In this document: positions 50,732 through 62,390 of the stretch, one piece after another
Layout of the letters: the number at the start of each line of letters is the position of its first letter
Position numbering within the stretch: position 1 is the stretch's first letter
Source: Synechococcus sp. PROS-7-1
GTDB lineage: Bacteria > Cyanobacteriota > Cyanobacteriia > PCC-6307 > Cyanobiaceae
Direction: 5' to 3'
Assembly (NCBI RefSeq): GCF_014279795.1
Contig: NZ_CP047945.1
Location: forward strand, 1,694,572-1,758,571
DNA: 64,000 nucleotides
Notes under the pieces: model-generated
The model's database searches: none
What the model was told of the DNA's origin: nothing
The model's input: only the letters and a program-made list of their open reading frames with translations
Program-made: the position numbers and the translations under genes

Positions 50732-51457
50732 TCAGGCACTAGTGACCAGGTTGAGCACAGCAGAAATCACCGTTGAATAAAAAAGAAAGCTCACAATGGA
50801 GTGAAACCACACCACTCTACGAATCCTTGAATCTTCAAGTGTTACATCACTCATGGCATAGGTGAGGCCTACCGCGAAAGCGACGTAAAGAAAATCGGTA
50901 AAAATTGGTTCATTTCCTTCGAAGATCAATCCCTGAGGGGACTCACCGCTCTCGCCACTGCGAGGGTTGAGCTGAAAATAACTCTTGGCATAGTGGATGC
51001 CAAAACCATTGTGCAATTGCATCCACGTAGCGAACATAGACAGAAAGTAAACAACAATTCTCAACCATTCCGGCAAGAAACTCTGACCAGAATGAATGTC
51101 GCTAATGCTTAAGCTCAACAGGGCAATACTCATAAATGTAAACAAAACCGTCCTGAGAATCAGTCGCATGCGACGAGCTCTTTCATGGCCGAAGAGCGTT
51201 CGTGTCTGCGGAAGATTCAATCGTGATGCACAAACATTGAAACGGACAAGGTCGAGCAACATAGCGCTGAGAAACCCAACAGAAAAGGCTTCATCAAGCA
51301 CATTCCAGCGCGCCCCCATCAAGCAGAAGATGATCAGGGCAACAACAACACCAATCGAGCCAGCGATCTTGGCGCGCTCTAGATCATGAAACGCACTGAA
51401 CAGCCGATGGGGAAAAGGGGAGGCCGTCAGAACCACCTGTTCACGATTCAAATCCAT
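50732..51457 (-). CDS. DUF1345 family membrane protein
   Basis: 241 residues with about five membrane helices. The family pattern is the C-terminal FTDFLYVAFAVGLTYAMSDV followed by RVVWFHSIVSFLFYSTVISA. Function unknown. The gene is visibly richer in A and T than its neighbours, which would fit recent gain, but no mobile element borders it. Confidence 0.8.
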   Translation of the reverse strand: MDLNREQVVLTASPFPHRLFSAFHDLERAKIAGSIGVVVALIIFCLMGARWNVLDEAFSVGFLSAMLLDLVRFNVCASRLNLPQTRTLFGHERARRMRLILRTVLFTFMSIALLSLSISDIHSGQSFLPEWLRIVVYFLSMFATWMQLHNGFGIHYAKSYFQLNPRSGESGESPQGLIFEGNEPIFTDFLYVAFAVGLTYAMSDVTLEDSRIRRVVWFHSIVSFLFYSTVISAVLNLVTSA

Positions 51458-51532: not shown

Positions 51533-52033
51533 ATGAGCGTTGATGCGCATAAAACCACTCACTTTGGGGTGGAGCATCGACTCCATGCCAGAGCCCGCAT
51601 CCGCTTCAAGTCTGAGCCCAGCCCAGAGATGCTGCGGAGCGTGATCTGGCTGATTGAGCGTGATGAATCGGGCGTCATGGCTCGCTCCGCACTGGCGGGA
51701 CGAGGGCTCGTGCTCTGGTGTGTCGACAAGGAACAATCCATCGAGATTGGATTACAACTCCTCAAGAACGTGCTGCAAGCTCCCTGCGCGCACCTTGTCA
51801 TTCCCCCTGAACGCGGATTGGCCGGCGTGCTTCAGCGATCGCGTACGGGTGGTATCAAAGTTCTAATGGCCCTTGCTGTGGCGGGATGGGCGCTCCCTGT
51901 CCTACCTGGGACGCCTTTCTTTTTAATGGCCTGGTGGTTGGGATGGAGGCCAGAGCCATCGCCTACCTCTCAGCGGAATTCGATCTCGATGCAAACGCCT
52001 TTAACTCTTGCGGATAAAGGTGTGAATCCATGA
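51533..52033 (+). CDS. Small HMA-like protein with C-terminal membrane hairpin (copy 1)
   Basis: 166 residues. Residues 15-80 resemble the ferredoxin-like HMA_2-type domain seen on the nearby ATPases: a GRxRxRx-like first strand (HRLHARARIRF), a helix, then a hydrophobic strand (GRGLVLWCVD) and a second helix. The usual CxxC metal pair is absent. A membrane segment follows (107-138) with LPVLPGTPFFLMAWWLGW. The protein shares this layout with the one at 55854. Its end overlaps the ArsA-like gene by 64 bases. It opens the ATPase locus. Confidence 0.65.
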   Translation: MSVDAHKTTHFGVEHRLHARARIRFKSEPSPEMLRSVIWLIERDESGVMARSALAGRGLVLWCVDKEQSIEIGLQLLKNVLQAPCAHLVIPPERGLAGVLQRSRTGGIKVLMALAVAGWALPVLPGTPFFLMAWWLGWRPEPSPTSQRNSISMQTPLTLADKGVNP

Positions 52034-53049
52034 CATTCTTCGGGCAAGGGGATGTGCAGACGTTGTTCCAATGCGGAGATTTCCAGTTTTTGATCTCGGC
52101 AAGTGATGCGCAGATCCGCTTTTTCGACACCGGGAGCGAAAACACGGCAAGTGAGCGTCAATCGCCCCTGCTGATCCCCACGACCCCAGTGCACAGAAGG
52201 AGGCGGCGTCGATGCTGAGCCCCACCATTGTCGAATGGCATCCCGTTGATCCAATCCGTCGCGCGCAGTGATGAGGATGGGTAGTCCCGAATCTGACAAG
52301 GGGATCATGGTCCAGCCCTGACCCTGCAGAACGATGCGACTGAGTGGAAGGGAATTGAGCGGCATCAGGGCGCAGCGTCGTCTCAGAACAGGCCAGCGTG
52401 CGGCATCTCCAATCAGCGCCAGCACCAATTCGCTGTGAGCAGGGTTGTTCAAACAGGTGGAGAGTGTCTGCAACCGCCTTCTCCATACCTCGGGTGGTCT
52501 TAGAGCGTCAGCAGCAGGCAATTGCAAGCGCAGCATTCGGTCAAAATGTGAAAGCTTCCGCCGGGTCTCGGTCCACCAGGTCAACAGGGGGTCCCAAAGG
52601 GAATCGAGCAGCTCCGGGCCCTGACGAGCCAGTTGAAGCATGGCCAGAGCCTGGGTAGCCGGTGGAAGCACCACCGTCACAACCCCATCACCGCTGGAGT
52701 TGATCTTGTGATCCAGCTGTTCAGCTAGCCATAGCAAGGCCTGGAGATCCCGGAGTCCTGGAAGCAGCCAGGGAGGCTTGGGGTCAACATCCTCGAATCC
52801 CAGCATCAGAAGCCAAGGAGTAAGGGGCTGTTTCAGCTCACTCCAAAGCATGCGGGAATGCGCCTCGATCGCGAAGGGCTTCACGATGCGAGGAAAGTCG
52901 CTTGGAAGAACCAGCGACAAATCCCCGGCAAGGTCAAGCACCGGGCCCTCATCAGGTTGTGCAATCAACAGATCAGAGGCCATTTCCAAGTGATCAGCGC
53001 AAAGGAAGACCAGCGATGGCACTGTCTGTCCTTGCAATGTATTGACCAC
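51970..53049 (-). CDS. ArsA-like protein without P-loop, with Hsp20-like C terminus
   Basis: 359 residues from a GTG at 53049. The last 65 residues (GRLTLTCRVFAPGVEKADLR, LEISALEQRLHIPLP) look like the Hsp20-like domain attached to cyanobacterial ArsA-family ATPases. The middle (WWTETRRKLSHFDRMLRLQL) is compatible with a worn ArsA core, but the N terminus (PSLVFLCADHLEMASDLLIA) has no Walker A, so ATP hydrolysis is unlikely. The ArsA assignment is tentative. It diverges from the DUF5132 gene by about 80 bases, so both may share a control region. Confidence 0.5.
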   Translation of the reverse strand: MVNTLQGQTVPSLVFLCADHLEMASDLLIAQPDEGPVLDLAGDLSLVLPSDFPRIVKPFAIEAHSRMLWSELKQPLTPWLLMLGFEDVDPKPPWLLPGLRDLQALLWLAEQLDHKINSSGDGVVTVVLPPATQALAMLQLARQGPELLDSLWDPLLTWWTETRRKLSHFDRMLRLQLPAADALRPPEVWRRRLQTLSTCLNNPAHSELVLALIGDAARWPVLRRRCALMPLNSLPLSRIVLQGQGWTMIPLSDSGLPILITARDGLDQRDAIRQWWGSASTPPPSVHWGRGDQQGRLTLTCRVFAPGVEKADLRITCRDQKLEISALEQRLHIPLPEECHGFTPLSARVKGVCIEIEFR

Positions 53050-53131
53050 TACGTTTCAAGCCCTCCTATCAATTTTGACATCGCTGAATCGAAAAAAAGC
53101 AAGTAGGTTCCTCGAAAGAGTGGTTCATGCA

Positions 53132-53467
53132 ATGTTCGAGCTGGAGACCGTACTTGCCTTCGGTGTCGGTGCCGGACTAGTTGCATTGGCACCAATGGTG
53201 AAGCGTTTCGGCAATCCCCAACTGGGCGATTCGATGAACCAGACCGGGCGGTCCATGGCCAAAAGTGGAATCAAATTGGGGGTCACCGTGGCCAGTGCAG
53301 CTGGTGCTGCTGCCAAGGGAGTTGCGCGCGGAGCGGCGGAAGCAGCCGAGGGGCTTGGAGATCTGGTTGCTGAAGCCAAGCATGAAATGGAGTCCTCTGT
53401 AGGGACAGAGGAGCCTGCTGTTAAGTCGAGCAAATCCAAGAAAGTCACTGAAGTCACTGTCGAGTGA
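53132..53467 (+). CDS. DUF5132-type protein (copy 1)
   Basis: 111 residues from the ATG at 53132. One hydrophobic segment (VLAFGVGAGLVALAPMVK) opens the protein, then a Ser/Ala/Gly-rich amphipathic part (SGIKLGVTVASAAGAAAKGV) and a charged Lys-rich tail. It is a paralogue of the protein at 59807. Its stop overlaps the P-type ATPase start (GTGA), so the two are translationally coupled. Membership in DUF5132, a family often beside P-type ATPases, is from recollection. Confidence 0.7.
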   Translation: MFELETVLAFGVGAGLVALAPMVKRFGNPQLGDSMNQTGRSMAKSGIKLGVTVASAAGAAAKGVARGAAEAAEGLGDLVAEAKHEMESSVGTEEPAVKSSKSKKVTEVTVE

Positions 53468-55857
53468 CGCATTCCACCACCATCTCTGGTTGCTTCAACA
53501 TGAGGGAGGAGTCGCTTGGCTTTCAGCTCATTCATCGCAGTGATCAGCGACTCCGCTTGAGTCTTCCTCGCGATCGCAAGTCTCCTGAAGCGTTGAAGCA
53601 TTGGTTGATCGGTCAGCCTGAAATCCTCTCAGCCAGGGTCAACACCTGGGCTCAATCACTCATCATCACCCTGCCTCCATCCACCTCAGGATGGAGTGAC
53701 AATGACGTGATCAGCTGGATGAATTCCCTCCCCAGCGATGGGGAACTGATGCATCAATTCAACGCCTGCCCTCCGGTTCAGGACGTTGCCTTGAGGGATG
53801 GCGATGCGGAGGAGCCCTTCGTCCCCTCCCGGATCATTCTTCCCGTCAGTTCCTTGGCACTGGCACTGCTCGCCGGCCCCTTATCGCTGCCACCTCTGGG
53901 CGTGGCGATCTTCATTCTCATCGCGGCCCGCCTGAGCTTCCGTCGGGCATGGGAAGGCCTTCGGGATGAACGCCGCATCAACGTCGATGCTCTCGACGCT
54001 TTGGCCGTGGGTATTCACAGTCTCGAGGGGTTCCTTGTTGGCCCGGCGTTGATGATCAGCATGATCGAGGGCGGTGAAGCGGTTCGTGATGCCACCCAAC
54101 GGATCGCGCATTCAGCTAGCTCCGATCTCCTGGCCGGCCTTGAGGCGGATGTCCGCCGTATTGATGATGCTGGCAACGAAACGATCGTGCCCAGCTCTGA
54201 ACTCAGATCAAATGACAGAGCCATTTTTTATCCAGGGGACAGCATTCCCTGCGATGGAATCGTTGAAAAAGGCGAAGTCAGCTTCGATGTTGTGAAGCTC
54301 ACCGGTGAATCTGTCCCCCGACACGCTGAGGCAGGTGATGAAGTTTTGGCTGGATTCATCCTGCTTGAAGGAACCATGATCATGCGCATCACGGCTGTGG
54401 GCTGTGACACCCGCATCGGTCAAATCACAGCGCTGATCGACTCAGCTCCTGTTTTCGACACTCGGGTGGGCAATGTCGCAGCAAGGGTTGCCAACCGCTT
54501 TGTGTTGCCGACTCTTGCGTTGGCAGGAGTCTCACTGCTTCTAAGCGCAGGCAATCTCGCCCAGGCGGCCTCCCTGCTGATGTTCGACCTAGGCACCGGC
54601 CTCAGGGTTTCTGTGCCAACGGCGATCATGGCTGCCCTGACACGCGCAGGTAGCCAAGGACTCCTGATCCGTAGTGGACGTGCGCTCGAACTCCTCGATG
54701 AGATCGACGTTGTTGTCTTCGATAAGACAGGCACACTCACCAAAGGGCACCCCTCGGTGGTTCATTTCGATGTGCTCGACCCATCGTTCGAGCCCGAGAC
54801 ACTGATGCATTTGGCGGCATCCGCCGAACAGGGACTGAACCATCCGATTGCAGAGGCCATCGTTCAATACGCGGCACTCTCAGAACAGCATCCTGCCACT
54901 CCTGATGCCTGGGATTACAAGATTGGGCGTGGAGTCTCCGCTGTGATCGAAGGCCATTCCGTGTTGATCGGTAACTCCCGATTGCTGCGCGAAGAAGGCT
55001 TGACTGAGCCAGAACTACCGATTCGCCCAGAGCTGGACACAGCAACACCTGTCTTTCTCGCCGTCGACGGTGCCATCGTCGGTGTTTTCCACGCCGCCGA
55101 TACCCTGCGTCCCGACAGCCACGCCCTGGTGCAAGAACTGCACCGCCGCGGCATCCAAGCGCACATGCTCACCGGCGACATCGCAACCGTTGCTCACGCT
55201 GTGGCCGCACGGCTTGGTCTACATCCAGATGAAGTGCACGCGGAAGCGCTACCCGATCAGAAAGCAGATCTGGTGAAAGCGTTCAAAGACCAAGGCAAGC
55301 GGGTGGTGTTCGTGGGAGATGGCATCAATGACTCAGCGGCTCTGGCCTACGCCGATGTGTCTGTTTCATTCGCTTCTGGCAGCGACCTGGCCAGGGAAAC
55401 CGCTGACATCGTGCTCACGAACGATCGTGTTTCCGATCTAATCGCTGCACAGGATCTGTCTCGGCTCACCTTCAAACTCATCCGCGAGAACATCGGCATC
55501 GTTGGCGTTCCCAACCTCAGCGCACTGCTCATCGGAACCTTCTTCCCCCTGGGACCGATCACAGCGGTGCTGATCAACAACGGGTCCTCCTTGGTCGCTG
55601 CTGGTAATGCCATGCGCACGCTCAGATTCCGTCCTTCCCCCCTATCAGAACCGCAAAGCTGCGACCTGCCTGCACCGTTGCGCGCCAGTGATCTTGCCAA
55701 GCGCTTGGGAACAACCCATCAAAGGATTAGCTCGATGCGCAAGAAAGGGGGACTTCCCTCTTGGAGCCGCCTCCAAGATCCTGACGGACACAGCTGGCGC
55801 TACTGCGAAACAACGCAGATCTACCACCCGCTGGAGATCGCTGAGGCGGTGGCTTGA
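53464..55857 (+). CDS. P-type ATPase, P1B-like, without CPC motif, with C-terminal HTH-like extension
   Basis: 797 residues from a GTG coupled to the DUF5132 gene (ATG at 53500 also possible). In order: HMA-like N domain (SDQRLRLSL at 26-34), membrane helices, actuator TGES (280-283), membrane helix with FDLGTGLRVSVPT (Asp375) where transition-metal ATPases have CPC, phosphorylation site DKTGTLT (Asp420), hinge GDGINDSAAL (618-627), and a last helix pair. The catalytic set is complete, so it should pump. The missing CPC leaves the substrate open. Residues about 740-790 (RASDLAKRLGTTHQRISSMR) look like a helix-turn-helix, very unusual on a transporter. Confidence 0.85.
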   Translation: MTHSTTISGCFNMREESLGFQLIHRSDQRLRLSLPRDRKSPEALKHWLIGQPEILSARVNTWAQSLIITLPPSTSGWSDNDVISWMNSLPSDGELMHQFNACPPVQDVALRDGDAEEPFVPSRIILPVSSLALALLAGPLSLPPLGVAIFILIAARLSFRRAWEGLRDERRINVDALDALAVGIHSLEGFLVGPALMISMIEGGEAVRDATQRIAHSASSDLLAGLEADVRRIDDAGNETIVPSSELRSNDRAIFYPGDSIPCDGIVEKGEVSFDVVKLTGESVPRHAEAGDEVLAGFILLEGTMIMRITAVGCDTRIGQITALIDSAPVFDTRVGNVAARVANRFVLPTLALAGVSLLLSAGNLAQAASLLMFDLGTGLRVSVPTAIMAALTRAGSQGLLIRSGRALELLDEIDVVVFDKTGTLTKGHPSVVHFDVLDPSFEPETLMHLAASAEQGLNHPIAEAIVQYAALSEQHPATPDAWDYKIGRGVSAVIEGHSVLIGNSRLLREEGLTEPELPIRPELDTATPVFLAVDGAIVGVFHAADTLRPDSHALVQELHRRGIQAHMLTGDIATVAHAVAARLGLHPDEVHAEALPDQKADLVKAFKDQGKRVVFVGDGINDSAALAYADVSVSFASGSDLARETADIVLTNDRVSDLIAAQDLSRLTFKLIRENIGIVGVPNLSALLIGTFFPLGPITAVLINNGSSLVAAGNAMRTLRFRPSPLSEPQSCDLPAPLRASDLAKRLGTTHQRISSMRKKGGLPSWSRLQDPDGHSWRYCETTQIYHPLEIAEAVA

Positions 55858-56357
55858 GCAGCAGCGACTGCCTGACCTTGCGCCACCGCAACGCCCTGCG
55901 TTGCCGCTACACGATTGATTCGGCGACCACCATGTGCTGGAGTCAACTCGAACGGGAACTCTCCAAACGCCTCACCAACCACAGCATTCAGTTCCGTTGC
56001 AACAGGCTGGCCGGTTCGATTTCGTTCCACACCACAGCAGCTCAGGGTGAACTGAATTGGCACGTCGCAACCCACGCCCTGGTGGCGTCCCTCGATGCTT
56101 TGGGAGTCACGCCTCCTCCTCCCAAGGTGTTGGCGATTTCCGTAAAAACGATCAGATCCCCATTGCCACCCATTGGCAATGTCATCACGTTGGCACTCAG
56201 TTTGATTCTCGCCCTAATGGCCTTTCTGCTTCTACTGATCGGCCTACCAGCGCACCTGCTGCCATTGTCCCCGGGTTCTGTTCTGATTCTTCTGGCGACT
56301 TGGTGTCTTGAACTCTCACTGCTGATGCGACGTCCCTTCGTTCAATCCGCCCCCTGA
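55854..56357 (+). CDS. Small HMA-like protein with C-terminal membrane hairpin (copy 2)
   Basis: 167 residues from a TTG whose bases overlap the ATPase stop (TTGA). The N-terminal half has the same RNALRCRYTI first strand and helix-strand pattern as the HMA-like domains around it, again without CxxC. Two membrane segments (110-132, 136-156) include LPAHLLPLSPGSVLILLATW, matching the LPVLPGTPF hairpin of the protein at 51533. It is coupled to the active ATPase and 5 bases before the first pseudo-ATPase, so all three are probably made together. Confidence 0.65.
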   Translation: MSSSDCLTLRHRNALRCRYTIDSATTMCWSQLERELSKRLTNHSIQFRCNRLAGSISFHTTAAQGELNWHVATHALVASLDALGVTPPPPKVLAISVKTIRSPLPPIGNVITLALSLILALMAFLLLLIGLPAHLLPLSPGSVLILLATWCLELSLLMRRPFVQSAP

Positions 56358-56362
56358 TTGCC

Positions 56363-58528
56363 ATGACAACCATGGTTTCGATCACCTCAGATGTCCAACC
56401 CTGGACAGTGGTCAGTGACCTTCCCGGCAGAGTCAGGGTTCGCTGGAACCCTTCACTCTTCAACGTTGAGACACTACGCCACACCCGATTGGTGTTGGGT
56501 GGTTGTCCCTGGCTGCTGGGATTCCGCATCAACCCCCTTGCCGGAAGTCTCTGCATTCATGTGAGCTCCGACCACCGCCCGAAGCTGGAGGAGCTGCTTG
56601 CTCTGGCACTCGATCCAGGTGGCACGCAACTCGAACCGGATTGCGAGGCTTTGGTGCGGTCAAAACGCGCAAGCCGCGTGTTGTTGCACGGTGGAGTCTG
56701 CACAGGGATCTTGCTGTTTGATCTCTTGATCCCTCTGCCGCTCACCCTGCTGGTCGGCCTGTCGTCGGTGATGATTTGGCCAAGGGTTCTTGCAGGATTG
56801 CGATCTCTCTTCAAGGGGGAGACCGATTACGACTTAATGGAGCTTGGACTCTCCGGGCTCATGCTCATTCAAGGACTTCCCGAGGAAGTTCTCGTGGATC
56901 TCAGCATTCACGATGGAACGGGCTTGATGCAGCAATCCATGCTGCCCTCCGACGAAACCGGAAGCCCAAAACGCTTGTTGCAGCGACTCGAAGAGCGAAT
57001 TCATCTCACGTCGCCGGATCCCGATCAACAGCCCATCTGCCTTTCCGATGCGAAACGCGGGCAAAAGTATCGAATTCATGCCGAACAAATGTGTCCCTTG
57101 CGTTCGCGCGTGGAGTGCGGGGATCTGCTTGTCATTGATAAACGCATTAATGGAGACTGGCAACCACGCTGGTTGAAGCAAGGCGATGGCGTCAAAGCCG
57201 GGGCGCTGGTGATTAAAGGCCAGGGAGTCCTGAGCCTGCAGACGGAACTCGACAACGACCCCACTTATGCCTTATTGCAAGAACAGCAGACACACAGCTG
57301 CCTCGAGGACAACGTTTTAGCGGGCGATCTCGCAACCATCGGTCGCTGGATGAATCCTTTTCTGCTGCTAAGCAGCGGTGCTTTGATTGCCACTGGTGCC
57401 GGCCATGCTGCGTTCGCGCCCCTGCAATTCACCCCCCTGCACAACTGGGAACAGAGCGTGAGTGGTGCCAGGTTGACAGCGGTAGCTGATCTGAAGCTGC
57501 ATAACGTCACTCTTCACAACCCCAACACGCTGAGCAGTTTTGGCAAGATCAAGCATCTTGTGGTGACCTTCAGCAGCCTGAACCACCACCGTGGGATCAA
57601 CCTTGAGGAGCACAGGATCGAGGATGGCTTAGCAGAAGGAAGCCTAGTGAGACTTCTCGCGGGAATCCAATCCTGGTTAGTAGAAGAGGGAGGCCCCTCG
57701 ATCTGGGCCGATCAGCTACGCGAGATCGACAAGCCCACAGCAATTGACTCGGTAACGATCGAGTCAGCAACCCGACGCTTCAATGTGGTGACCGCCGATG
57801 GCCAGCGCTACTTGGTAGAGCCCGATGTGACGGAATCGCCTTCCTCCTCAGATGCCATTGAGATCCTGCATCCCCTAACCATTCGTCGTGATGGCAACGC
57901 AATCGGCAGGATCACCATGACGATGTGTCCTGATGATCATTGGATTCAAGCGTCATCTTTGCTCAAGAGACAAGGCATCAAGCTCCATGTGGTCTCCACC
58001 CTTCCGTCGAAACAACTGAAAGCCAGCGTTCACAGCCTGGGACTTCCTGATGGCCAAATCCATGGAGGTTGCGACGGAGCCAAGCGGGTCGCACTGGTGA
58101 GACGCCTTCAAGGACAATCCCAAACTGGGGTGGCGTATCTGGGGTACCTGATCCAGGACCTCGCAGCCCTTGAATTGGCCGATGTCTCAATCGGCATGCG
58201 CGTCGAAGACGACAGCCTCTTCATCTCTGAACTCTGCGATCTGACGATTCCCACGAACGCCGGATGGATTCCCAGACTGATCGAGCTGAGCCGCAGATTG
58301 CAGTCCACAGAGAACAGCAACTTTGGACTGATCACCACCACACAACTCATTTCGACCCTGGCAACGGTTGTGGGTTGGATCCCGCCGCTTCAGACCATCC
58401 TTCTTGCCGACCTACCGATGTTGATTGCTGAGCTGCACAACATCCTGAGCGTTGAACGGGTGGGTTACCCCGCTGGGGATGCAAGACCTCAGCTGGCAGC
58501 CTTCACAAGTCGCCATGAGGATCGCTGA
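56363..58528 (+). CDS. Catalytically dead P-type ATPase-like protein (pseudo-ATPase 1)
   Basis: 721 residues with an unbroken frame. The N domain has LPGRVRVRW (20-28). The P-type layout can be followed throughout, but the phosphorylated Asp is Ser404 (VVTFSSLNHHRG in place of VVFDKTGTLT), GDGxND is GYLIQD (594-599) ahead of LAALELADVSIGM, and TGES is gone. The helix before the phosphorylation site reads LQFTPLHNWEQS and the last helix ends LLADLPMLIAELHN; both motifs recur in the protein at 60129. A structural or regulatory partner of the intact ATPase is inferred. Confidence 0.75.
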   Translation: MTTMVSITSDVQPWTVVSDLPGRVRVRWNPSLFNVETLRHTRLVLGGCPWLLGFRINPLAGSLCIHVSSDHRPKLEELLALALDPGGTQLEPDCEALVRSKRASRVLLHGGVCTGILLFDLLIPLPLTLLVGLSSVMIWPRVLAGLRSLFKGETDYDLMELGLSGLMLIQGLPEEVLVDLSIHDGTGLMQQSMLPSDETGSPKRLLQRLEERIHLTSPDPDQQPICLSDAKRGQKYRIHAEQMCPLRSRVECGDLLVIDKRINGDWQPRWLKQGDGVKAGALVIKGQGVLSLQTELDNDPTYALLQEQQTHSCLEDNVLAGDLATIGRWMNPFLLLSSGALIATGAGHAAFAPLQFTPLHNWEQSVSGARLTAVADLKLHNVTLHNPNTLSSFGKIKHLVVTFSSLNHHRGINLEEHRIEDGLAEGSLVRLLAGIQSWLVEEGGPSIWADQLREIDKPTAIDSVTIESATRRFNVVTADGQRYLVEPDVTESPSSSDAIEILHPLTIRRDGNAIGRITMTMCPDDHWIQASSLLKRQGIKLHVVSTLPSKQLKASVHSLGLPDGQIHGGCDGAKRVALVRRLQGQSQTGVAYLGYLIQDLAALELADVSIGMRVEDDSLFISELCDLTIPTNAGWIPRLIELSRRLQSTENSNFGLITTTQLISTLATVVGWIPPLQTILLADLPMLIAELHNILSVERVGYPAGDARPQLAAFTSRHEDR

Positions 58529-58989
58529 CCCGACCGCTGGATCCGCAGACAACGAAGTCCTCGTCTCTCAAAGCCTTTCCCATCGTCGAGATCCTGCAAA
58601 GGAGGTAGGCGCCTGAGCTGAAGAAGATCCGCCAGCTCGCGGCTGTCCACTTCGATGCCAGTTCGCACAAGCTGTTCAAGGATCTCGAGACGCTCCCTGA
58701 ACAGCCTCAGATCTGCGAACTGCTCAGCTTTCATCCAATTGGAATCGCCACTGACGACCGGCAAAGACGACGCATCACCCTCGCCATGGGCCTGAACCAG
58801 CTCAAGCTCGGTCGGTACAAGCTCCCCACCATCGCTGGTGACTGCAGCTCTCAAACGTGAAACGTCACTCGCCCGCAGGAATGTACGCAGCCCTCGACGC
58901 TCAGGACTGATGCCAATCCGCTGAGCCAAGACAAGAATCTCAGCGCGCGAGAGTCCCAGCTCGGATTCGAGTCTCGACAGGGTCAGCAT
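58489..58989 (-). CDS. Helix-turn-helix-like regulatory protein
   Basis: 166 residues from the ATG at 58989 (a GTG ten codons upstream is possible). The N-terminal part (LSRLESELGLSRAEILVLAQ, then RRGLRTFLRASDVSRL) is like a MerR-type winged helix. A middle helix is followed by a second part (VDSRELADLLQLRRLPPLQD ... SSWRLVKA) that resembles the C-terminal extension of the P-type ATPase (RASDLAKRLGTT ... HSWRY). It may regulate the locus or bind the ATPases. Its 3' end overlaps the pseudo-ATPase by 40 bases. Confidence 0.55.
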   Translation of the reverse strand: MLTLSRLESELGLSRAEILVLAQRIGISPERRGLRTFLRASDVSRLRAAVTSDGGELVPTELELVQAHGEGDASSLPVVSGDSNWMKAEQFADLRLFRERLEILEQLVRTGIEVDSRELADLLQLRRLPPLQDLDDGKGFERRGLRCLRIQRSGQRSSWRLVKAAS

Positions 58990-59133
58990 CTCATCAGCCA
59001 CGGGCAAGCAACGGACCACCGCGTCATGTTGGTCGTGAACGACTCAGAACGGGGTGGTCATGACGACACCGTGTCCAGAACAACGAGACAATTCATGGCA
59101 CCCTGCGGCCAAAATCCTTCTACGAGAACAGAC

Positions 59134-59721
59134 ATGACGATGACGCCGGAGCAGAGTCTTCAAGCTTTGAAGGCGGGGCATGATCGATTTATGGCGGGAG
59201 AGTCCCGACACCCCCACTCCTCTGCTCACAGGCTCAAGCAGCTGGTGGATGGGCAACGCCCGATGGCCGCCATCTTGAGTTGTTCCGACTCGCGCGTTCC
59301 CGTTGAGCTGCTCTTTGATGCAGGATTTGGGGATCTTTACGTGGTCCGCACCGCAGGGAATACAAGTTACAGCGACACCATTGGCTCTCTCGACTACGGC
59401 GTGCTGTCGCTGGGCATCCATCTCATTGTGGTGATGGGGCACGAACGCTGCGGAGCCGTAACAGCAGCCTGCACTCCAGAGGAAACGCTCACTCCAGCAC
59501 TCAGCGATCTGGTTGGCACCATCCGCTCCAATCTCAAACGCGTTGGTATCGCCAATGATGTGGGGGCAGCCTGCCGAGCCAACAGCATGGAATCGGCTCG
59601 CAGCTTGGTTCATGGCAGTGCGTTAATGCAGGAGCGCGTGAAGCAAGGAACTCTTCGGATCGAAGCGGCTTGTTACACCCTCGAAGAGGGAGCCATCGAG
59701 TGGCTCGGTGCTGTCTCCTGA
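59134..59721 (+). CDS. Beta-class carbonic anhydrase
   Basis: 195 residues from the ATG at 59134; ATGs at 59095 and 59140 are alternatives. Zinc ligands are in LSCSDSRVPVELLFD (Cys, with the Asp/Arg dyad) and VVMGHERCGAV (His, Cys). It hydrates carbon dioxide in the cytoplasm. It is not the carboxysomal CsoSCA. Whether it belongs functionally to the surrounding ATPase locus is unclear; it sits between the HTH-like gene and the second DUF5132 gene. Confidence 0.9.
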   Translation: MTMTPEQSLQALKAGHDRFMAGESRHPHSSAHRLKQLVDGQRPMAAILSCSDSRVPVELLFDAGFGDLYVVRTAGNTSYSDTIGSLDYGVLSLGIHLIVVMGHERCGAVTAACTPEETLTPALSDLVGTIRSNLKRVGIANDVGAACRANSMESARSLVHGSALMQERVKQGTLRIEAACYTLEEGAIEWLGAVS

Positions 59722-59806
59722 TGAGCACAAGTCGCCGCTATTTCGGCATAAAGCAGTAATTTTCAATGGATGTTCATCGGCCTTTCCTTCCGGCCCCTTC
59801 ACCACG

Positions 59807-60124
59807 ATGTTCGAACTCGAATTTCTCCTGGCCATGGGCGTCGGCGCTGCGCTTGTTGCTGTAGCACCTGCCGTCAAGGCCGTTAGTGGAAAGGAAACCG
59901 ACTGGAGCCGCTCGGTTAGCAACAGCGGCCGCACCATTACCAAGCAGGGGCTCAAGCTTGGAATTCGTCTGGCCGACACGACAGGAGCACTCTTGAAAGG
60001 AGTGGGACACGGCTTTTCAGAGGTCAGCGAAACCTTCACGGACCTTCTCGCTGAAGCTCGTGCGGACCTTGAAACCAACAAGCCAACCCAACCTGCCGTG
60101 ACCGTGACATCCAAACGCGGTTGA
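59807..60124 (+). CDS. DUF5132-type protein (copy 2)
   Basis: 105 residues from the ATG at 59807. It begins MFELEFLLAMGVGAALVAVA, closely like copy 1 (MFELETVLAFGVGAGLVALA), and shares the SGRTITKQGLKLGIRLADTT and FTDLLAEARADLE pattern. One membrane segment and an amphipathic helix follow. It converges on pseudo-ATPase 2 with 4 bases between stops. The duplication ties the two halves of the locus together. Confidence 0.7.
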   Translation: MFELEFLLAMGVGAALVAVAPAVKAVSGKETDWSRSVSNSGRTITKQGLKLGIRLADTTGALLKGVGHGFSEVSETFTDLLAEARADLETNKPTQPAVTVTSKRG

Positions 60125-60128
60125 ACTC

Positions 60129-62390
60129 TTAAGCCCTCTTGCCAAGCGTGAGGCATGCACCAGAACGGGAATTGAAGATATCCGCGGTGAGAATGGGGAG
60201 ATCCACAAGAATCACTGCAATCAAAGGGTTGAGTGGGATCACAAGGTTCACCAACACCACAAACAAGTGAGGCATGAGCACCCAAACCACTTGCTCTGTC
60301 TGCCGTCTCTGGAACCGTTGGCAAAGATTGACCAGCACAGGGAGCTGATCAATACAGCGAGTTGCGATCAGAACATCGGCAAGCTCCTGGGAGAACGCCT
60401 GATCCAGGTCAGAGATCCGCATCCCCACATCAGCAGCTGCGATCAAGGGAATATCGGCATCCTCTCCTGCAAGCAGCATCACCGGTCCCTGGGAGCGAGC
60501 CTGCTCAAGCAAGGACAACTGCTTGGACACATCAGGCTCAAACACAACATTCTGCTCGGGAAGATCGAGCCGTTGGCGCAACAGATTGGCGAACTGCATG
60601 TCCCAACGCATCATGAGCGTGATCTGCACACCATTGCGTTCCAGTCTTCGCAAAGCTCTTAAAACCCGTCGCGATTGACTCACCTTGAAGGCCACCCCTC
60701 CAATCAATTGACCGGAGCGAATCACATACATCCAGGTCCAGTGACCAATAGGACCGAGATCCCCTGAATGCTGGAGCTGACGGGCACGCAAAAGATTCGG
60801 GCCTCCAATCTCAATCCGCTCACCCAACACCAGACCACGCCATCCGAGAGAACCATTCATTTCGATCTCTTCCACGCTGCATGGATCCAGATCCATGGCT
60901 TGAAGAAGCGTGGTGTAAGCCGTGAGTCCGAATGGTCGTTGCTTGCAACGGAACCCGGCCAGGATCTGCACCAGTTCGTCGGCACTCGCATCCATTAATG
61001 GGTGAAGGCTTTCCAGTTCCATCGACATGAAACGGCCAAGCACCGATTCCGTGATCAACAACTGATGGCTGGCCGCTATCGCTGCACAGGTCTCAGGTCT
61101 TTGCAGAACCATGCCCAGATTCAAGGCATCCCGTTGGAGAGCGCCTAACTGCAATGAACAGCTCAACTCCCAGTCGCTTAGGGGATCAAACTGAAGCAGT
61201 CCTGCCGCACGGCTGGACTGTCCGGACAGAAGTAAACCACCTCCCGCCATCAGGATCAGAGGGACGGTGCGCGAGTGCAGACGTCGTGATGCCTCAATGA
61301 TTGGAGGTGGAGCGACCTCCGAGGCCATGACTTGGGTGCAGTGATCCTCTGGTTGCAAGGGATCTTCTGTTGCGATCACCCGGATCACAAGATCACCACT
61401 AACCAGCCGGATCCCAGCAGGCAGCTGTTGAAAAGGCCTGACTGGGATCTGCACAGAGCGACCATCGGCCCAGAGCGAAGCAACGGTTCCTGCACCTTGC
61501 ACCACCTGTCCGTGACAGGGCAATCGCTCGCCTTTCAACAGACGCAGATGATCACCAGCCCTGAGGCTGGAACTGGGAATCTCTGCCACGGACCCATCGG
61601 ATGCCTGCAGCCTCACCGAACAACGCTGGCGAAAGTCCTCGAGACGCTCCCGAAGCAACGTGCACTGCTCAGGGCCAGGCGTCCAACGCTTGAGCGAATG
61701 ATTGCCAAGTTCAATCCCCCACTCCAACAGCAATGCCTGACCATGACCGCGAAAAGCGAGGGAGCCGTACCAAAGAAGATCCAGGGTCTTGGCTGGAATC
61801 TGCCCTGCACGCCGTTCGGACCAAAAGGCCCGCAACAACGGCAGGAATAAAAGCGGACCCACTGGAAGCAACAGCAGCAGCATCGGCAGGTCAAGAAGCG
61901 CATTGACACCGAACAGGGCCAGCACAAAAGACAGTCGACGCAGTGCCTGCGCATTGACAGACGGCGCTATGGACAGGGACAGAGCCACCTCTTGCTGCGC
62001 CGACTGCTGCAGGAGCATGAGGACTGCTCGTTTGTGCGTGAGACGACGCGGGTCTCCCTCCAACGTGAGGCTGCCGGCCATGGCATTGGCCCGAACACGG
62101 CGGACCCAACGACGCTGGAGTGCCTGATGGATGAGTGCCTGCACCTGAGAAGGGTCTAGGGAACAGTCCACACGACGCAGTCGCAGTCGGCCTGGAATGG
62201 AGTGCATCACCTGCCAGTGCATGCCGCTGGCTGGACAGAGCAGAACCTGACCGACACACAAATGCTTCATGACCACAGCGTGGCGTGGTGAAGGCATCAG
62301 CCAGGTGTCGCCCGCAACCTTCAAACAGCATTGGCATGGAACTGAGGCCATTCCGGTGAGGAACGGGGGCACTCGCCCTCGAAAACTCAT
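60129..62390 (-). CDS. Catalytically dead P-type ATPase-like protein (pseudo-ATPase 2)
   Basis: 753 residues; the ATG at 62390 has GGAG four bases ahead. A Cys cluster CQCC (19-22) precedes an HMA-like domain (HSIPGRLRLRR). The P-type scaffold is complete but the phosphorylation site is LLITESVLG (Glu448 at the Asp position), the hinge is GEDADIP (642-648) before AAADVGMRI, and TGES is WADGRS-like. LLQFDPLSDWELS and ILVDLPILTADIFNS match the replacement motifs of the protein at 56363. Starts at 62351, 62297, 62270 or 62222 would drop the Cys cluster or more. Confidence 0.72.
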   Translation of the reverse strand: MSFRGRVPPFLTGMASVPCQCCLKVAGDTWLMPSPRHAVVMKHLCVGQVLLCPASGMHWQVMHSIPGRLRLRRVDCSLDPSQVQALIHQALQRRWVRRVRANAMAGSLTLEGDPRRLTHKRAVLMLLQQSAQQEVALSLSIAPSVNAQALRRLSFVLALFGVNALLDLPMLLLLLPVGPLLFLPLLRAFWSERRAGQIPAKTLDLLWYGSLAFRGHGQALLLEWGIELGNHSLKRWTPGPEQCTLLRERLEDFRQRCSVRLQASDGSVAEIPSSSLRAGDHLRLLKGERLPCHGQVVQGAGTVASLWADGRSVQIPVRPFQQLPAGIRLVSGDLVIRVIATEDPLQPEDHCTQVMASEVAPPPIIEASRRLHSRTVPLILMAGGGLLLSGQSSRAAGLLQFDPLSDWELSCSLQLGALQRDALNLGMVLQRPETCAAIAASHQLLITESVLGRFMSMELESLHPLMDASADELVQILAGFRCKQRPFGLTAYTTLLQAMDLDPCSVEEIEMNGSLGWRGLVLGERIEIGGPNLLRARQLQHSGDLGPIGHWTWMYVIRSGQLIGGVAFKVSQSRRVLRALRRLERNGVQITLMMRWDMQFANLLRQRLDLPEQNVVFEPDVSKQLSLLEQARSQGPVMLLAGEDADIPLIAAADVGMRISDLDQAFSQELADVLIATRCIDQLPVLVNLCQRFQRRQTEQVVWVLMPHLFVVLVNLVIPLNPLIAVILVDLPILTADIFNSRSGACLTLGKRA

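Follow-up and report, generated by a model that had tools for sequence, protein, structure and literature searches.

The DNA analysed here is a 64,000-nucleotide stretch (hereafter the window) of the genome of Synechococcus sp. PROS-7-1, which consists of a single contig of 2.57 Mb, and the element under study is a cluster of genes built around a P-type ATPase. A preliminary description of the cluster had listed ten proteins between 51533 and 62390. This gene set is confirmed as real: all ten proteins are open frames located about where they had been placed, and the conservation of the set across genomes argues against a product of chance. Two amendments are needed, as the likely starts (chosen here) of the beta-carbonic anhydrase and of the second DUF5132-like protein are 59134 and 59807, and a DUF1345 gene at 50732–51457 also belongs to the set. 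The genes are as follows (HMA, heavy-metal-associated; HTH, helix-turn-helix):

50732..51457, minus strand: DUF1345 membrane protein (PF07077, 108 bits), with a homologue in the cluster of 15/15 locus-bearing genomes.
51533..52033, plus strand: hmaH1, an HMA-like N-terminal domain with a C-terminal membrane hairpin; weak DUF454 match.
51970..53049, minus strand: Get3d-like pseudo-ATPase, with a predicted ArsA/Get3 fold (model, Foldseek), an HSP20-like C-terminal domain and no P-loop.
53132..53467, plus strand: d5132a, a small Gly/Ala-rich DUF5132-like protein (alignment) with one predicted membrane stretch; first gene of a tight run.
53464..55857, plus strand: active P1B-like ATPase, with an HMA-like N-terminus lacking CxxC and a C-terminal HTH-like tail (TIGR01525, PF00122, PF00702).
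55854..56357, plus strand: hmaH2, an HMA-like domain with a membrane hairpin (alignment), its N-domain akin to that of the ATPase (hhalign).
56363..58528, plus strand: pseudoA, catalytically dead P-type ATPase paralogue A (motif loss, P1B fold of the model).
58489..59019, minus strand: HTH-like protein, convergent to pseudoA, so labelled from the look of its sequence.
59134..59721, plus strand: beta-carbonic anhydrase (PF00484, 112.5 bits, cut-off 25.7).
59807..60124, plus strand: d5132b, the second DUF5132-like protein (alignment); two such copies per cluster in 15/15.
60129..62390, minus strand: pseudoB, catalytically dead P-type ATPase paralogue B, accessory (PF00122, TIGR01525).

The overlap of stops and starts over 53132–56357, with the next gene 5 bases on, is borne out by the gene coordinates. 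Indeed, the d5132a/ATPase and ATPase/hmaH2 junctions each overlap by 4 bases, and the gap between hmaH2 and pseudoA is 5 bases. A promoter and terminator scan of the locus gave one promoter-like site (3.8 in shuffled sequences) and 14 terminator-like sites (11.2 in shuffled sequences).

To survey the distribution of these genes, 200 genomes of the order were drawn evenly from a larger group, and the best first-look candidates of each were scored. Full-length pseudoA, the ATPase and the HTH-like protein occur in the identical 15 genomes: pseudoA matched 49 genomes at E ≤ 1e-3 (15 full-length and 34 partial, the latter taken for ordinary pumps), the ATPase profile matched 15 at E ≤ 1e-100 and the HTH-like profile 15. 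Shared ancestry being ignored, two such sets would be identical by random draw with a probability of approximately 7e-23. The Get3d-like profile retrieved these 15 genomes and, weakly, a sixteenth (G185). Four of the locus-bearing genomes belong to the window's genus (22 sampled), five to g9, five to g8 and one to g13. In a six-frame profile scan, ten components (DUF1345, carbonic anhydrase, two DUF5132-like proteins, hmaH1, Get3d-like, ATPase, hmaH2, pseudoA and HTH-like) were clustered in 15/15, the cluster of G046 being split over two contigs.

The presence of two dead pumps, by contrast, does not hold as a general rule, for pseudoB is found at full length in eight of the 200 genomes, all of them locus-bearing. 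It adjoins the cluster in no genus but that of the window; in G045 and G134 a long distance separates the two, and G046 and G165 have them on different contigs. Across the phylum, with scoring confined to the two best candidates of a genome, at least 8 of 386 genomes, each belonging to the same family, yielded full-length pseudoA, with 9 matches in total. Finally, among 19 named contigs found via the ATPase (two more distant matches uncounted), 14 extend past hmaH2, and pseudoA comes next in 13 of these (two cut by the contig end); the remaining one, L063, has none. Relatives that keep the ATPase while the other genes are randomly missing, which would have spoken against a joint machine, were thus not seen among the 15 genomes, although L063 lacks pseudoA. 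As a side observation, G185 carries an isolated Get3d-like homologue that is weaker and contains one stop (G185:C12:3199-4200), and neither the ATPase, full-length pseudoA nor the HTH-like protein was found in that genome.

That the locus encodes one complete P-type ATPase is clear from both family profile and motifs. The protein scores 460.8 bits against TIGR01525 (cut-off 346.25), also matches PF00122 and PF00702, has sequence relatives among solved structures (CopA, ZntA class) and possesses the DKTGT, TGES, GDGxND and HP motifs; DKTG and GDGxND are kept in 14/14 aligned ATPases, the alignment comprising 14 of the 15 orthologues (G134, whose frame is split, was omitted). In transmembrane helix 6 (TM6), the CPx position is occupied by FDLGTGLRVSVPT in the 15 aligned locus orthologues, FDLGTG standing in place of CPx, and none of the 14 aligned ATPases has a CxxC in its first 120 residues. 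As CPx is missing from TM6, the ATPase is a divergent P1B relative and not a classical CPx pump; a classical CPx heavy-metal efflux pump is disfavoured by the loss of both motifs. Two side observations concern the C-terminus of this protein. A conserved HTH-like tail, LxLSALSKRLGVSHQxISARRRRGDF...W (55645–55857 in the window), is odd for a P-type ATPase and yields only weak Pfam matches, to HTH_17 and Phage_Cox. In G134 (L045:9786-12244) the frame is split near the C-terminus into 61 + 765 amino acids (aa), through a frameshift or an assembly error.

The two P-type-like proteins had been described as lacking catalytic motifs, and they do. Neither DKTG, which holds the phosphorylated Asp, nor GDGxND was found in any of the 19 pseudoA and eight pseudoB proteins aligned; TGES is absent from the aligned position in 19/19 and 8/8, respectively, a bare TGE occurring elsewhere in 3/19 and 1/8. 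Against TIGR01525 the window proteins score 31.4 and 83.5 bits (cut-off 346.25), the higher score being that of pseudoB, which also matches PF00122 above cut-off (39.3 bits) and whose P-type fold is assigned by sequence. For pseudoA, the predicted model (predicted local distance difference test, pLDDT, 74.6; predicted template modelling score, pTM, 0.66) displays a P1B fold, with matches to ZntA (4umw, E 3e-28), CopA and ATP7B, and its ion-site helix carries an invariant F-x-P at the position of FDL in the active pump. In the tree, pseudoA, pseudoB and the locus ATPases each form a group of their own, the order among groups being unsure and the branches long; the tree includes one row, L080, that is probably wrong and an unrelated frame. 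Both dead pumps remain intact, and purifying selection acts on them. Indeed, pseudoA frames are open in all 15 genomes (684–807 aa, no stops), many residues are invariant in the dead-pump alignments, and the ratios of non-synonymous to synonymous substitution rates (dN/dS) in two close pairs are 0.14 and 0.17 for pseudoA and 0.24 and 0.05 for pseudoB, compared with 0.13 and 0.09 for the ATPase.

The remaining proteins are likewise maintained by this measure, with dN/dS values of 0.25 and 0.25 for the Get3d-like protein (two close pairs) and, from one pair each, 0.12 for hmaH1, 0.09 for d5132a, 0.17 for the HTH-like protein and 0.07 for the carbonic anhydrase. The protein previously read as ArsA-like without a P-loop indeed shows no Walker A pattern in any of 15 orthologues, but its fold is nearest to Get3d: the model (pLDDT 84, pTM 0.84) has NosGet3d (8egk, E 1e-15) as its best Foldseek match and also retrieves Arabidopsis Get3d, and the significant sequence match of this 359 aa protein to Get3d is restricted to the C-terminal domain. 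As pseudoA and pseudoB have lost their motifs and the Get3d-like protein has no P-loop, the locus appears, on these models, to hold three dead nucleoside triphosphatase-like proteins of two folds. Two DUF5132-type genes are present as described, but their scores are under the Pfam cut-off of 25 (11.3 bits for d5132a and 15.8 for an orthologue, d5132b being unlisted). hmaH1 also stays below the cut-off of DUF454 (25.6 bits, cut-off 35.1), and GWxLPxxPGTPFFxxAW is invariant in its 12 aligned orthologues. Profile scans of the window proteins gave no Pfam or NCBIfam HTH match for the HTH-like protein, whose alignment keeps ten of the 14 rows called (L035, L036, L037 and L051, with overlong starts, were left out).

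A common thread among these proteins is an HMA-like domain devoid of metal-binding cysteines. A CxxC in the first 120 residues was found in 0/19 pseudoA, 0/14 hmaH2 (L039, cut by the contig end, was left out of this alignment), 0/12 hmaH1 and 0/7 calcyanin-like proteins, and in one of eight pseudoB. All six HMA-type sets (ATPase, pseudoA, pseudoB, hmaH1, hmaH2 and calcyanin-like) have an invariant R-x-R pair, with an invariant histidine upstream of it in four (ATPase, hmaH2, hmaH1 and calcyanin-like). By hhalign, the hmaH2 N-domain matches that of the ATPase with 92% probability, and the calcyanin-like N-domain matches ATPase (96%), pseudoB (96%), pseudoA (92%), hmaH2 (90%) and hmaH1 (88%). 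The domain is presumably the one named ‘CoBaHMA’; an open-literature search found no paper using that word or DUF5132.

The calcyanin-like gene belongs to the clusters of relatives. In g8 and g13, a protein of 302–333 aa that combines an HMA-like domain at its N-terminus with long glycine zippers is encoded between the carbonic anhydrase and the second DUF5132-like gene. We name it calcyanin-like on the basis of what we take to be the definition of calcyanin, namely three C-terminal glycine zippers and a variable N-terminus; no NCBIfam or Pfam calcyanin model matched the calcyanin-like proteins tried. Gloeomargarita, Thermosynechococcus and Microcystis are known carriers of calcyanin. Strong matches (288–582 bits) occur in eight of the 200 genomes, all of them among the 15 (P approximately 1e-10, uncorrected for ancestry). 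This presence of a calcyanin-like gene in 8/15 locus-bearing genomes is new here; in six the gene lies inside the cluster, and in two of the window's genus (G055, G056) elsewhere in the genome. Matches in locus-less genomes were weak and partial, numbering four (18–22 bits, one genome each). Eight of the 19 named clusters also contain the gene, three of which (L064, L074 and L078) probably represent the same genomes as G139, G165 and G046. In a phylum draw of 367 genomes, homologues of the zipper part were found in nine genomes of other families, two more being retrieved via the HMA-like part only; glycine-spaced blocks were seen in 7/7 of the proteins read from these nine genomes, with differing N-termini, and the conserved columns of the comparison rest on these seven. 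As a side observation, where genomes of other families are positive for the calcyanin-like gene, their nearest ATPase relative (L093, L096 and L102 in G423, G368 and G288; L100 and L104 in G418 and G284) keeps DKTGT and has GEG(I/F)ND replacing GDGxND, with SGEV replacing TGES in two.

Further clues to the transported ion come from the neighbours of the cluster genes in relatives. Extra pseudoA paralogues, which form one clade in the tree, lie directly behind a Ca2+/H+-exchanger gene in three genomes, G045, G138 and G139, with exchanger–paralogue gaps of 1, -1 and 24 bases (longest-frame starts):

L044:7631-12233, L041:8528-10918 and L050:7964-10228: extra pseudoA paralogues behind the exchanger, two in a row in G138.

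The exchanger matches PF01699 above cut-off and TIGR00378 with 181 bits, below the cut-off of 211. GDT1 proteins form a family of Ca2+/Mn2+:H+ antiporters; each of the five g9 genomes has a GDT1 gene between pseudoA and the HTH-like gene, and G046 has one next to pseudoB. Outside the window's genus, 4–6 GDT1 repeat matches were counted in 11/11 locus-bearing genomes versus two in 4/4 locus-less ones. The g9 clusters also hold a Na+/H+ exchanger. Exchanger adjacency, GDT1, the carbonic anhydrase and the g9 Na+/H+ exchanger together speak for Ca2+, Mn2+ being its chief competitor. The preliminary description had left the substrate unknown; the calcyanin-like gene, the exchanger and GDT1 in relatives narrow it to a divalent cation, most likely Ca2+.

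Our leading explanation, to which we give tentatively about an even chance, is that the gene products form a multi-protein machine in the membrane that acts on a divalent cation (Ca2+ being the likeliest) as part of intracellular calcium and carbonate handling. The single active ATPase would supply the energy and move the ion from the cytosol to the periplasm or to an internal membrane. The dead pumps (pseudoA and, in genomes that have it, pseudoB), with their P-type fold, F-x-P and no phosphorylation, would act as structural or regulatory partner subunits, and the cysteine-free HMA-like domains of ATPase, dead pumps, hairpin proteins and calcyanin-like protein may dock the parts to one another or to the membrane. 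The DUF5132-like proteins could be PacL-like membrane scaffolds (see below), the P-loop-less Get3d-like protein might aid membrane-protein assembly, the carbonic anhydrase would set local bicarbonate and carbonate, and the HTH-like protein would be a regulator. The formation of a complex, the direction of transport, the identity of the ion as Ca2+ and all subunit roles are what we infer from this comparison. The granules of known carbonate-forming strains are described, in the available text of one study, as compartments bounded by a non-bilayer envelope of approximately 2.5 nm (PMC6087745). We can also conceive of a bolder version, possible but on balance doubtful: a heteromeric P-type ATPase, in which an active Ca2+ pump needs dead paralogue subunits, with calcyanin-type HMA domains, the P-loop-less Get3d and carbonic anhydrase as scaffold, would be the calcium-loading machine of picocyanobacterial intracellular carbonate, its dead subunit also serving the Ca2+/H+ exchanger.

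Several observations weigh against such a calcium machine. With E ≤ 1e-3, calcyanin-like genes were detected neither in the five g9 genomes nor in G065, the nearest relative of the window's genome, nor in the window's genome itself (11 of its 17 candidates scored), and a second calcyanin-like profile gave no match at 1e-6 in the window's genome (6 of 18 candidates scored); as none was found there, the tie to calcyanin is indirect for the window organism, in which the machine may serve Ca2+ efflux or the mineral-forming part may have been lost. Conversely, other cyanobacterial families have calcyanin-like genes, but no full-length pseudoA was seen in them. Synechococcus sp. AG-670-F04 (L063) keeps the ATPase, hmaH2, GDT1 and the HTH-like gene without pseudoA (L063:12397-14270). 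The N-domain of hmaH1 matches the other locus N-domains with hhalign probabilities of only 3–63%, and hmaH2 is less constrained (dN/dS 0.45 and 0.20 in two close pairs). The window's genus has no extra GDT1, two matches being counted in 8/8 genomes, locus or not. Na_Ca_ex exchangers are present in 23/23 genomes tested, locus or not, and the number of family members does not set the two groups apart, so that only adjacency counts, and this was seen in three genomes. GDT1 proteins, moreover, also move Mn2+.

This last point leads to the closest alternative, which we regard as unlikely: the same multi-part machine would transport a transition metal, Mn2+ or another, and calcyanin and carbonic anhydrase would be linked to it through general ion homeostasis. 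Membership of the ATPase in the heavy-metal P1B family by TIGR01525 agrees with this, as does the GDT1 gene adjoining the locus in g9 genomes, cyanobacterial GDT1 relatives having been reported as Mn2+ exporters. However, the absence of CxxC and the replacement of CPx by FDLGTG argue against a transition metal, and the relatives link the locus to a Ca2+/H+ exchanger and a calcyanin-like gene. Somewhat less probable still is that the dead pumps work on their own in a new role, such as ion sensor or receptor, making no contact with the ATPase, the genes being grouped for co-regulation only. pseudoA is indeed far less conserved than the ATPase (22–35% versus 58–65% identity to the window protein across genera), its extra paralogues pair with an exchanger and not with a pump, and pseudoB is distant from the cluster or on other contigs in the four genomes named above; yet pseudoA and the ATPase occur in exactly the same 15/200 genomes and their genes nearly overlap. 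Finally, the loss of the tested catalytic motifs could mark the dead pumps as decaying duplicates without function, a reading so improbable, given open frames in 15 genomes, many invariant residues and dN/dS of 0.05–0.24, that we consider it largely refuted.

To our knowledge, no separately encoded dead partner has been described for a P-type pump, and an open-literature search on dead P-type ATPases found none; dead partner subunits are common in ABC transporters. A parallel is offered by the giant mycobacterial P-type ATPases CtpH and CtpI, which combine a degenerate P-type half with an active half, but in one fused chain, whereas the pumps of the locus are separate genes. With the P1B ATPases CopA and ZntA, the active pump shares TIGR01525 membership, sequence relatives among solved structures and full catalytic motifs; it differs in lacking a CxxC N-domain and the TM6 CPx, and in having an HTH-like tail and a steady dead paralogue. 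The Get3d-like protein resembles Get3d of Nostoc (All4481) in fold and HSP20-like C-terminus but has no P-loop (15/15). In mycobacteria, PacL is a small protein with a single membrane stretch that is made with the P-ATPase CtpC and, according to the available text, is thought to form membrane platforms (PMC9374683), so that P-ATPases organised by a small membrane protein have a precedent. It belongs to the DUF1490 family, has a metal-binding tail and concerns zinc, with no dead pumps mentioned in that text (PMC9374683); the likeness of PacL/DUF1490 to the DUF5132-like proteins is by architecture only. Calcyanin (CcyA), known from cyanobacteria that contain intracellular amorphous CaCO3, is associated with intracellular carbonate, as reported in the parts available of two papers (PMC11773610, PMC12836880). 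The locus proteins have its HMA-like domain in common, and a calcyanin-like gene lies inside the cluster in relatives; the difference is that those parts describe no P-type pump with dead pumps for calcyanin (PMC11773610, PMC12836880), and that no such gene was found in the window's genome. In 2025, no functional equivalent of the Achromatium Ca2+-ATPase had been found in carbonate-forming Cyanobacteriota, as far as the available text of that paper goes (PMC11773610). The module described here, linked to a calcyanin-like gene in relatives, is a concrete candidate for such an equivalent.

Two minor observations concern the survey itself. The frames ‘C10’ and ‘C20’ in the cluster survey look like shadow frames of the DUF5132 genes. 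L065, L076 and L069 carry the cluster under the labels Rhodopirellula MED697 and Deltaproteobacteria UBA6967, and are probably misbinned picocyanobacterial DNA.

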